Source: Nodosilinea sp. E11 (GTDB lineage Bacteria; Cyanobacteriota; Cyanobacteriia; Phormidesmidales; Phormidesmidaceae). Taken from it: a DNA stretch of 64,000 nt. Shown here piece after piece: positions 13,133 to 17,627 of the stretch. The stretch spans positions 4,520,001 to 4,584,000 of the forward strand of contig NZ_CP136520.1 in NCBI RefSeq assembly GCF_032813545.1. The letters are read 5' to 3'. Numbering within the stretch: the first letter of the stretch is position 1; each line of letters begins with the position of its first letter. Position numbers and translations under genes: made by a program. The notes under the pieces are model-generated. The model saw only the letters and a program-made list of their open reading frames with translations, ran no database searches and was not told the DNA's origin.

Positions 13133-13485
13133 TCCTTAGTTTAACAAACCTGCCCAAGGGGCGTTGGGGTAGCAAAAGAGCGGCGTAGGATTAGGAGCGG
13201 GGCGCATTCAGTGCGCCTGGGTTAACTCCTACAACCTGTCTGCTCCGCCTCTCTAAAGGCTGTGCTACTATGGAGCAAAATCTTAAGCAAATCTAAAAAT
13301 TTGTTTATTTTCGTCAAGCTCTGCTAAGGCTTCTGTCTGTCTTCTCGACTCAAGGCCCATCGTAGACCTAGGTTAGTGATGACCAATCCACAAACGTGCT
13401 CCTCTGACCACGGGCGGAATGCTTATTCAACAGGTTCTCAGCTATTAGACCTGTGTTCGCTGGCCCCACCCAGGAGTATCTGCTT
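13133..13485. other. intergenic region between tldD and response regulator
   Basis: About 350 bases separate the divergent tldD and response-regulator genes. An AT-rich segment near 13280-13320 is the most promoter-like part. No repeat, hairpin or convincing small gene is visible. Confidence 0.4.
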
Positions 13486-13920
13486 ATGGTAGTGCGACAT
13501 TCATCACTCCCAACTCTCAACCTAGCTTGCCCCCAACTGCCTCTAGTGCTTGTCGTTGACGATGATGATGACAGCCTCACCTTGATGGCCTACATTTTAG
13601 AGCAGTTGTCATGCCAGGCTTATTTTGTGGCTGACGGTCTAGCGGCACTGGTTGCAGCCAAGCAGTACCGTCCCCAACTGATTTTGTCAGACATCCATTT
13701 GCCTGAGATTGATGGTTACAGCTTGCTTCAACAGCTGCGGGCCGATGGCGACACCCAAAACATACCCGTCATCGCTGTGACAGCTCTAGCTAGCCACACC
13801 GATCGCCAAAAAATTCTCACCGCTGGCTTTGACGACTATCTCAGTAAGCCTTTTTTAATTCAATCTTTAGAGCAGCTGATCAACAGCTTTATTCAGCTGT
13901 CAACGTCTTGCAATGCCTAG
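13486..13920 (+). CDS. single-domain response regulator (CheY-like receiver)
   Basis: 144 residues made of one receiver domain with a short N-terminal tail. The acidic pocket is VVDDDDD at residues 23-29, the phosphoacceptor is Asp69 in LILSDIHLPEIDG, the switch Thr lies in VIAVTALA and the conserved Lys in YLSKPF near 122. No output domain is present, so it probably acts by binding a partner kinase or effector. The frame is open to a GTG at 13453, but the ATG at 13486 has an AGGAG nine bases upstream and is preferred. It is convergent with the DUF2294 gene. Confidence 0.88.
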   Translation: MVVRHSSLPTLNLACPQLPLVLVVDDDDDSLTLMAYILEQLSCQAYFVADGLAALVAAKQYRPQLILSDIHLPEIDGYSLLQQLRADGDTQNIPVIAVTALASHTDRQKILTAGFDDYLSKPFLIQSLEQLINSFIQLSTSCNA

Positions 13921-13934
13921 GTACCGATTGAAGT

Positions 13935-14309
13935 TTAAGAAGCTTTAGCCGCCGGACGCAGCTCCGGTGGGCTAGAGAGAATAATCACAACGCTGGTGCG
14001 CCCGGTTGCCAAGGTGGCGTCGGTCAGAATGTCTACGACCTCACGATTGAGCGCCTGCTCTACTAACTCAATTATTTGAGGGCGCAGAGCTGTAGAAAGA
14101 TCGCCTCTGACCTGCTCGGCCAGTTCTGATTCACCTTTTTTAATCAAAAGCTGTTCGGGTTTGGTGACCGAGTCTTCGATCACCAGCAGCAGCTTTTCGT
14201 CAATGATCTGACAGGTAATTTTGCCTGGCGCGTGATCGAGTTGATCGCGGTAGAGGCGCTGAAACTGTTGAGACAAATGACGCTGAAGTTGACCTTGAGT
14301 AGGCAGCAC
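13935..14309 (-). CDS. DUF2294 family protein
   Basis: 124 residues. The pattern LPTQGQLQRHLSQQFQRLYRDQLDH, followed by CQIIDEKLLLVIEDSVTKPEQLL and ending with DILTDATLATGRTSVVIILS, matches the cyanobacterial DUF2294 family, for which I know no experimentally settled function. No signal or membrane segment. The start appears to be GTG at 14309, because no in-frame ATG lies upstream. It sits between two response-regulator genes, which may hint at a signalling connection but is weak evidence. Confidence 0.75.
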   Translation of the reverse strand: MLPTQGQLQRHLSQQFQRLYRDQLDHAPGKITCQIIDEKLLLVIEDSVTKPEQLLIKKGESELAEQVRGDLSTALRPQIIELVEQALNREVVDILTDATLATGRTSVVIILSSPPELRPAAKAS

Positions 14310-14473: not shown

Positions 14474-15190
14474 CTAGGTTACCAAACCCGATCGCAGGGC
14501 GCGCACAGCCGCTTTGGTGCGATCGTCAACACCGAGCTTATTGAGAATGCTGCGAACGTGGGTTTTAACCGTACCGACGGTAATGTAGGAGCGCTCAGCA
14601 ATTTCGGCGTTGCTGCATCCACCGACGATCAGCTCTAAAATTTCTAGCTCTCGCTCGGTCAGCGGATAGGATTCTAAGATTTGCTCAAACTCAGGCTCGA
14701 TCGCCTCGATTGAAACGGTGCGGTTGTTAGCCGCCATCGCTCCGGCGGGGGTCTTGCGCACCTGACGCAGCACTACGCTAGCCACAGCAGGGTCAATCCA
14801 AGAGTTGCCCTCAAAGGTTTCGCGCACGGCCACAATCAGCTCGTCGAGCTCGGTCTGCTTCATGCAGTAAGAGTCGGCCCCGGCGGCAAAGGCAGCCATC
14901 ACGGCGGCTTCGCTGTCGTGCATTGTGAGCATGAGGACTCGGGTCGGATCGCTATCGCTACCGCTCTGGATCTGACGCAGCCGTTCTACCAGCTCAATCC
15001 CATCAATGTCAGGCAGGCCAATGTCGATAATGGCGACATCGGGATGCTCGGTTTCGAGCAGGCTGAGCCCTCGGGACCCGTTGGCGGCTTCGCCCACTAC
15101 TGTCATGCCCTCAACTCGCTGCAGAGCGGCCTTCAGGCCTAGGCGGGTAAGGTCGTGGTCTTCAATGAGTACAATACGAATATCTGTCAT
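14474..15190 (-). CDS. NarL/FixJ-type response regulator
   Basis: 238-residue transcription regulator: receiver domain at about 1-125 with phosphoacceptor Asp56 in AIIDIGLPDIDG, a linker of about 45 residues, and a LuxR-type helix-turn-helix at the C-terminus (LTEREEILELIVGG-like block, then EIAERSYITVGTVKTHVRSILNKLGVDDRTKA). The frame is open to 15250, but the ATG at 15190 has AGAGGA at a suitable distance and begins the receiver domain directly. It is divergent from the ethylene-receptor-like kinase with a 283 bp spacer, so the two are a likely cognate pair. Confidence 0.9.
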   Translation of the reverse strand: MTDIRIVLIEDHDLTRLGLKAALQRVEGMTVVGEAANGSRGLSLLETEHPDVAIIDIGLPDIDGIELVERLRQIQSGSDSDPTRVLMLTMHDSEAAVMAAFAAGADSYCMKQTELDELIVAVRETFEGNSWIDPAVASVVLRQVRKTPAGAMAANNRTVSIEAIEPEFEQILESYPLTERELEILELIVGGCSNAEIAERSYITVGTVKTHVRSILNKLGVDDRTKAAVRALRSGLVT

Positions 15191-15473
15191 AGGTAGTCCT
15201 CTGAAAGAGGCATTGAAAAAGTTCTGGGCAAGCCATTTGCCTAGGTGCACCGATTATGGAGCAAGTCTAGGGGGCTAGCACGTATCTTCAGGCAGAGCCA
15301 GACTGAATCGAGGCTCTGTCTCAGGATAGACCCTGACCTTTCAAAAAAGATAGTGCAGCCGAAAGACTTAGCTGTAGAAGATTTGGCTCCGTTATTAATC
15401 TCCATTGCTGGCTCTCTCTCAATAGCTTTCGTCCTGGCCGCTCAATCCTTGATCTCCCAGTTTTAAGAAGATT

Positions 15474-17627
15474 ATGGCTGACTCTATACAGGCGTTGTGG
15501 TTGGGGCCGTATATTCCCCACGGACATTGCTATTTGTGGCAGCCGGGCCTGGTCTGGCTGCACCTGCTCTCAGATGCGATCATTGCTCTGTCGTACTGGC
15601 TGATTGCCGGAGCTTTAGTGTATTTTGTCCAGCGGCGGCCTGATGTGCCGTTTAAGCCGCTGTTTTGGCTGTTTGCAGCCTTTATTGCCGCCTGTGGTGC
15701 TACCCACCTGTTTTCGGTGTGGACGCTGTGGTTTCCGACCTATTGGGTGTCGGGGACGATGAAGGCGATCACGGCGCTGGTGTCGCTGGCCACGGCGCTA
15801 GAATTGGTGCCCCGCCTACCCCTGGCCCTAGCTCTGCCCAACGCCACCCAGCTGATGGATATGAATAAGGCGCTCCAGGAGGAAATTGGCGATCGCAAAC
15901 AGGCCGAAGCCAACCTGCGGACCGCCGAAGCCGAAGTGCGCCAGCTCAATGCCACCCTAGAAGAGCGGGTACAGCGCCGTACCGCCCAGCTCGAAGCAGC
16001 CAAACAGCAGATTGAAACCCTGCTGGGGCAAGAGCGCCAGGCTCGGGGCACCCTGCAAGCCGCCAAAGACAAGCTGCAAGATATTGCTGAGCGCCTCAAC
16101 CTCGCCCTCAGCGCCGCCCAGATGGGAACCTGGGACTGGCAGCTCGATACGGGCAGCCAAATCTGGTCGGTCCAGACCGAGCACATCTTGGGCTTTGAGC
16201 CGGGGACGGCCAGCCATACTGCCGAGGTCTGGGCCGAGCGGGTGCATCCCAACGATCTGCCCGCTATGGAGGCGCTGATTGACCGGGCGATCGCAACCCA
16301 GGGCGAGTTTGCAGGGCAATATCGGGTGCGCTGGCCCAACGAGAGCTGGCACTGGGTCAGCGCCTATGGTCGAGTTGTCGCGGTTAACGACCAACGCAGC
16401 CAGCGCATGGTTGGCGTCATGCAAGATATCACTCCTGCCAAGCAGGCCGAGCTGGCGCTGCGGGCCAGCGAAACTCGCTTTCGAGCTGTGTTTGAGCAGG
16501 CAGCGGTAGGCATGGCTCGTCTCAACCTCCAAGGCCAGTGGATACAGGTGAACCAAAAACTCTGCGACCTGCTGGGCTACCAACCCCAAGAGTTAATCGG
16601 CCAATCCTTTCAGGCGATTACCTTTGCCGCTGACCACGCCCAAGATGAGCACTATCTTCAACAGCTCGTCACCGGGGCTGAGGCGTCTTGTCAGTTTGAG
16701 AAGCGCTATCTCCGCCGTGATGGAACGCCGATTTGGGTTTTGGTAACGGTCTCGGTCGAAAGTGACGAGGCCGATGGGCCGATGGCGTTGATTGCGATCA
16801 TTGAAGATATTGAAGCTCGTCAAACCGCCCAGGCAGAACTGCGGCAGCGGGCCGACGAAATGGCTCAGACCAACCTCGTACTAGCCCACACCACGGCCCT
16901 GCTAGAGCGCCGCAACGCTGAACTCGATCAGTTTGCCTATGTGGCCTCCCACGATTTAAAAGCTCCGCTGCGGGCGATCTCAAACCTGGCCGAATGGATT
17001 GGCGAAGATTTAGCAGGGCAAATTCCGGCAGAAAACTGTCACCAGCTAGAACTACTGCGCAGCCGAGTACAACGGATGGAAGCACTGATCAACGGCCTGC
17101 TGGAATATTCGCGGGTGGGCCGTCGCCAGCGCAGCATTGTTGCCGTTGACATCAATGTACTGCTGGCCAATGTGATCGATTCTTTAGCTCCACCAAAATC
17201 GTTTCAGGTGGAGATTCCGACTGATTTACCGACGATATATAGCCATAAAACTGTTTTGGGCCAAGTGTTTGCCAATTTGATCAACAACGCCATCAAGCAC
17301 CACCACTGCGCTGACGAAGACTGCCCGGAGGACATTTGCGGCACCGTGCGGGTCGCCTGCCAAACCAAAGACGAATGGCTCGAATTTACGGTTGCCGACG
17401 ACGGCCCTGGCATTGCTCCTCAGTACCACGACAAAATTTTCACCATTTTTCAAACCCTCAAAGCTCGCGATGACTTTGAAAGTACGGGCGTGGGCCTGGC
17501 CGTGGTGAAAAAAATTGTTGAAGCCGAGGGGGGGCGCGTCTGGCTAACCTCTGCCCTGGGGGAAGGAACCACCTTTTATTTCACCTGGCCCTTTCTCAAA
17601 ACCCCACCCCAGCCCGACCCAGCTTAG
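15474..17627 (+). CDS. histidine kinase with ethylene-receptor (ETR1-type) sensor domain
   Basis: 717 residues. Three membrane segments (about 29-52, 63-84, 93-112) form an ethylene-binding domain: Asp34, Tyr41, Ile71, Cys74 and His78 have exactly the spacing of Asp25, Tyr32, Ile62, Cys65 and His69 of Arabidopsis ETR1, where Cys and His hold the copper cofactor. A coiled coil (about 128-205) follows, then PAS domains at about 210-325 and 330-450. The kinase core has phosphoacceptor His493 in YVASHDLKAPLRAIS, an N box (NLINNAIKH), DDGPGIAP and GVGLAVVKKIVEAEGG. There is no GAF/CBCR domain, unlike Synechocystis Slr1212 (SynEtr1/UirS). The probable partner is the divergent NarL-type regulator. 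Ethylene binding is inferred from residues only. Confidence 0.9.
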   Translation: MADSIQALWLGPYIPHGHCYLWQPGLVWLHLLSDAIIALSYWLIAGALVYFVQRRPDVPFKPLFWLFAAFIAACGATHLFSVWTLWFPTYWVSGTMKAITALVSLATALELVPRLPLALALPNATQLMDMNKALQEEIGDRKQAEANLRTAEAEVRQLNATLEERVQRRTAQLEAAKQQIETLLGQERQARGTLQAAKDKLQDIAERLNLALSAAQMGTWDWQLDTGSQIWSVQTEHILGFEPGTASHTAEVWAERVHPNDLPAMEALIDRAIATQGEFAGQYRVRWPNESWHWVSAYGRVVAVNDQRSQRMVGVMQDITPAKQAELALRASETRFRAVFEQAAVGMARLNLQGQWIQVNQKLCDLLGYQPQELIGQSFQAITFAADHAQDEHYLQQLVTGAEASCQFEKRYLRRDGTPIWVLVTVSVESDEADGPMALIAIIEDIEARQTAQAELRQRADEMAQTNLVLAHTTALLERRNAELDQFAYVASHDLKAPLRAISNLAEWIGEDLAGQIPAENCHQLELLRSRVQRMEALINGLLEYSRVGRRQRSIVAVDINVLLANVIDSLAPPKSFQVEIPTDLPTIYSHKTVLGQVFANLINNAIKHHHCADEDCPEDICGTVRVACQTKDEWLEFTVADDGPGIAPQYHDKIFTIFQTLKARDDFESTGVGLAVVKKIVEAEGGRVWLTSALGEGTTFYFTWPFLKTPPQPDPA

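Follow-up and report, generated by a model that had tools for sequence, protein, structure and literature searches.

An ETR1-type membrane sensor kinase with alanine at the Pro36 position, and its divergently encoded NarL-type regulator, in Nodosilinea

Ethylene binding to Arabidopsis ETR1 requires seven residues, as determined by alanine scanning (PMC11819568; PMC6682694), among them I35, P36 and I62 (PMC6586836). According to PMC6586836 and PMC11819568, the scan of Wang et al. (2006) reportedly showed Pro36 to be essential; in squash, CpETR1A P36L is listed among that plant's described ethylene-receptor mutations (PMC8012379). Several bacterial kinases carry the same ethylene-binding domain (EBD). 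Among the closest described systems is AzoEtr1 of Azospirillum brasilense, which, like the kinase reported here, combines an EBD, PAS input and a histidine kinase with a neighbouring response regulator and has no bilin domain (PMC11819568). In cyanobacteria, SynEtr1 (Slr1212, UirS) of Synechocystis shares with our protein an N-terminal EBD and a kinase that signals to a DNA-binding regulator. GeiEtr1 and GeiEtr2 of Geitlerinema PCC 7105 are also cyanobacterial EBD kinases (PMC6682694), and GeiEtr1, which is arranged as EBD-GAF-HK, was likened by its authors to plant ERS receptors (PMC6682694).

Domain layout and match to ETR1

The stretch of DNA analysed, referred to as the window, comprises 64,000 nucleotides of the Nodosilinea sp. 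E11 genome. The open reading frame list and Pfam identify a kinase of 717 amino acids at 15474..17627 on the forward strand, with the layout EBD-PAS-PAS-histidine kinase. The EBD-type sensor occupies residues 22–121 (15537..15836; Pfam ETR1_N, AlphaFold2 and residue check) and contains three membrane helices. According to Pfam it is followed by two PAS domains at residues 206–328 (16089..16457; Pfam PAS_3 at 231–316) and 335–446 (16476..16811), HisKA at residues 484–548 (16923..17117), in which a residue check places the phosphoacceptor His493, and HATPase_c at residues 594–707 (17253..17594), all on the forward strand. The ETR1_N profile (PF25487) matches kinase residues 26–121 over profile positions 2–97 of 97, with E=3.2e-37 and 127 bits against a cut-off of 27. 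The Pfam scan of the 717-residue kinase found no GAF domain, and no LOV motif was found in its sequence; the two PAS domains stand where a bilin-binding GAF domain would be, as the preliminary description had it. The reading frame, Asp34, Tyr41, Ile71, Cys74, His78, His493 and the string CGATHL are likewise as first described. The nearest named relatives come from Nodosilinea and related genera. Close to the kinase N-box lies a segment rich in Cys and His, HHHCADEDCPEDIC (approximately residues 609–622), which was considered as a metal site; it is a variable loop insert that is missing from most orthologs, and a metal site is therefore not worth proposing there.

Local alignment of the kinase with the N-terminus of ETR1 gave a score of 163, whereas none of 500 shuffles scored above 58; the numbering of the ETR1 query reproduces the published D25, Y32, C65 and H69. 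Six of the seven required residues are present: Asp25, Tyr32, Ile35, Ile62, Cys65 and His69 of ETR1 correspond to D34, Y41, I44, I71, C74 and H78. The seventh, Pro36, aligns with Ala45 (codon gcc, 15606..15608, forward strand). In addition, K97 and S104 sit at the positions of ETR1 K91 and S98. The original statement that the kinase reproduces the ETR1 spacing exactly is therefore correct for the five residues that it named, but it left out Pro36.

AlphaFold2, run on 46 EBDs, gave helices that span residues 24–54, 61–86 and 90–120, with a mean pLDDT of 87 and values mostly of 92–98 within the helices. Taken as helix assignments only, the predictions place Asp34, Tyr41, Ile44 and Ala45 on helix 1, Ile71, Cys74 and His78 on helix 2, and Lys97 and Ser104 on helix 3. 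This agrees with the earlier proposal of three membrane segments carrying the motif, and the residues named there keep the ETR1 spacing within modelled helices 1 and 2. Hydropathy over 19 residues exceeds 1.6 for the first two helices only. Neither a sequence search nor a fold search (best E ~1) found a solved EBD structure.

Membership of the ETR1-type EBD family is secure. The function of ethylene receptor is not secure, because one required residue is replaced; given that Pro36 is essential in ETR1 and is alanine throughout the group described below, the case for ethylene as its ligand is weaker than had been implied.

Position 36: history and constraint

Across 145 EBD rows, some of which represent loci fetched twice, position 36 is Pro in 97, Ala in 44 and Ser in 4, and the positions of Ile35, Ile62, Cys65 and His69 show no variation. 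The four serine forms (loci L090, L134, L135 and L140) are otherwise intact EBDs that branch separately in the EBD tree. That tree, for which the Pro36 column was left out, is based on a small number of columns and contains several long branches; it places the Ala36 rows in a single group with one Pro/Ala change (SH-aLRT 97). A tree of the kinase core, containing no EBD columns and leaving out the truncated L180, puts all the included Ala36 kinases in one clade of 26 rows, with support of 98/81 and a bootstrap that had not fully settled. The clade consists of all Nodosilinea orthologs together with some related genera, and position 36 is alanine in all 26 distinct members that have an intact Cys.

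Constraint on the domain was compared with that on the rest of the protein in 16 Nodosilinea orthologs. The EBD has a mean amino acid identity of 0.88 and a median dN/dS of 0.099, the kinase core 0.86 and 0.101; the first PAS domain is looser, with a dN/dS of 0.152. All seven binding positions, including Ala45, are invariant in these orthologs. In a set of 92 Pro36 EBDs, 42 columns reach a conservation of 95% or more, and the 26 Ala36 EBDs with Cys retain 40 of them; the two that depart are Pro36, by construction, and Leu at 121, which becomes Met or Ile in 6 of the 26. Judged from these comparisons, at least the Nodosilinea EBDs do not show a pattern of decay. In other parts of the clade two lineages have replaced the copper Cys, with Gly in L180 and L181 and with Ser in L178, and in two Nodosilinea species (L220 and L221) the whole EBD has gone and no regulator adjoins the kinase. 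The input has therefore been lost repeatedly within the clade.

The Ala36 clade is in effect a natural counterpart of the P36A mutant of the ETR1 scan, with one essential position changed and the rest under selection. Since other loci keep Pro36 on the same EBD-PAS-PAS-HK and regulator layout, the role of Pro36 is directly testable.

We note that the genome encodes a second EBD protein. This is an EBD-GGDEF protein of 303 residues (L002:973-1884, reverse strand; contig C7 of the same genome, 589275–589556), which has all seven ETR1 residues, Ser at the K91 position, an intact GGDEF motif and an RxxD-like site. It is possible that this protein links ethylene directly to c-di-GMP. Many Nodosilinea and their relatives have reading frames of about 300 residues that carry an EBD resembling this one. 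A further locus (L005:6188-8101, forward strand) encodes a GGDEF-EAL protein whose weak and degenerate EBD just passes the cut-off, and in which the Asp25 position, judged by eye, appears to be Asn.

The partner regulator and a candidate operator

The regulator gene lies divergently from the kinase at 14474..15190 on the reverse strand, and encodes a NarL-type protein of 238 residues (Response_reg and GerE by Pfam), with Asp56 identified by residue check. In every Nodosilinea EBD-kinase locus examined, a close homologue is encoded divergently next to the kinase; the same holds for the EBD kinases of L082, L091 and L099 and for outgroup genera, among them the Pro36 forms L086 and L093. The proposal that this regulator is the partner is thus upheld by Pfam and by the comparison of neighbourhoods: an intact HisKA/HATPase kinase adjoins a conserved regulator that has both a receiver and a GerE domain, as in a two-component pair. 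On its other side, the regulator is adjoined by genes for a CheY-like protein and an MpsC-domain protein (window positions 13453–13920 and 13935–14309), an order that L082 shares with the majority of Nodosilinea loci.

The regulator is more widespread than the EBD: it is present in 228 of 388 cyanobacterial genomes (E below 1e-70), and EBDs were found in 208 of 388 sampled. Most of the 40 regulator loci that were fetched have no EBD next door. Some have divergent kinases with a closely related core and a different input, namely CHASE3 in L233 and PAS arrays in L188, L189 and L194. Within this conserved pair the input domain therefore varies, and the EBD can be regarded as an exchangeable module, alternating with CHASE3 or PAS.

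The intergenic region shared by the two genes contains an inverted repeat, TCTGTCT-CA-GGATAGA (15315..15330), which differs by one mismatch from the consensus TCTATCY-NN-RGATAGA. An inverted 7-2-7 arrangement of this kind is known for NarL. The dyad lies approximately 120–140 bases upstream of most Nodosilinea regulators. Because the consensus derives from the Nodosilinea alignment, only matches in outgroups and elsewhere in the genome are independent. Mismatches number 0 in the outgroup L093, 2 in L086, and 1–2 in L207, L188, L194 and others. Genome-wide, 7 sites match with one mismatch or none, and a reversed control gives 0; at up to two mismatches the numbers are 58 and 48, with no clear enrichment. 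Six of the seven near-consensus sites, including that in the window, lie outside called reading frames. Of the six other sites (L240–L245), five are outside called reading frames, one of them ahead of a large frame that resembles a sensor protein. On this basis the dyad is a candidate operator for the regulator.

Proposed function and comparison with known systems

We favour a two-component sensor whose input is an ETR1-type, three-helix, Cu(I)-dependent EBD, probably still for ethylene, and would assign this reading a probability of roughly 0.57. Cys74 and His78 would hold Cu(I), with Asp34 nearby, and a small gas, most likely ethylene or else a comparable π-ligand, would bind beside the metal. 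Movement transmitted through the linker and the two PAS domains would change autophosphorylation at His493, from which phosphate would pass to Asp56 of the regulator; this in turn would bind the intergenic dyad and, probably, a small number of other promoters. The change from Pro36 to Ala45 is likely to retune affinity or ligand release rather than to abolish sensing, because the EBD is still under strong purifying selection. The essential role of Pro36 in the ETR1 scan, the P36L mutation of squash CpETR1A, and the repeated loss of the copper Cys or of the EBD within the clade, are reasons for doubt.

The same single, fixed change could instead have switched the ligand specificity or sensitivity of the whole clade, giving an ETR1 fold with an intact copper site that responds to some other ligand, or to ethylene but with greatly altered kinetics; we hold this only as a tentative suggestion. 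Somewhat doubtful, in our view, is an ethylene-blind descendant, in which loss of Pro36 ended ethylene binding and the retained copper site senses Cu(I) availability, CO, another alkene, or membrane or redox state. It would account for a single Pro-to-Ala change against fixed D, Y, I, I, C and H under strong constraint at a position reported as essential (PMC6586836), and the EBD-GGDEF protein could then carry the ethylene function; however, there is no positive evidence for another ligand, and Ser36 in four otherwise intact EBDs suggests that this proline may be dispensable in cyanobacterial EBDs. A decaying EBD, kept mainly as a membrane anchor while the real input lies elsewhere, in the PAS domains, would fit the losses of Cys in L178, L180 and L181 and of the EBD in L220 and L221, all within the clade, but is improbable, because in Nodosilinea the constraint on the EBD equals that on the kinase and the metal-site residues are invariant in 16 orthologs. 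A dual receptor for light and ethylene like SynEtr1 has in its favour that our kinase and SynEtr1 fall in one broad group of EBD kinases from cyanobacteria, but is very improbable in view of the GAF and LOV results.

The proposed two-component EBD sensor differs from each described relative. Arabidopsis ETR1 has in common with it six of the seven essential residues, together with the counterparts of K91 and S98, but has Pro36 in place of Ala, and a GAF domain and a receiver, neither of which is found in the Nodosilinea kinase. SynEtr1 carries a cyanobacteriochrome domain; in the Nodosilinea kinase two PAS domains are found instead, the partner is of NarL type, and Ala takes the place of Pro36. 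GeiEtr1 and GeiEtr2 have GAF or PAS plus GAF input and all seven residues, and no regulator gene is named among their grouped neighbours (PMC6682694). AzoEtr1 has all seven residues and one PAS domain, and its regulator is a stand-alone receiver of 135 residues encoded just downstream and overlapping the kinase gene (PMC11819568), in contrast to the divergent NarL-type regulator here. The kinases of Chroococcus FPU101 (L086) and Aphanothece hegewaldii (L093) share the EBD-PAS-PAS-HK layout, the same divergent regulator and the dyad, and differ in keeping Pro36 and thus the full seven residues. The suggestion of an ethylene sensor uncoupled from light accordingly stands in so far as this is a genuine EBD kinase without a GAF domain; with Pro36 lost its ligand is in question, and the idea itself is not new, because bacterial EBD kinases without a photoreceptor domain have already been published (AzoEtr1, PMC11819568). 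What is new compared with these systems is therefore the Pro36 variant and the modular partner.
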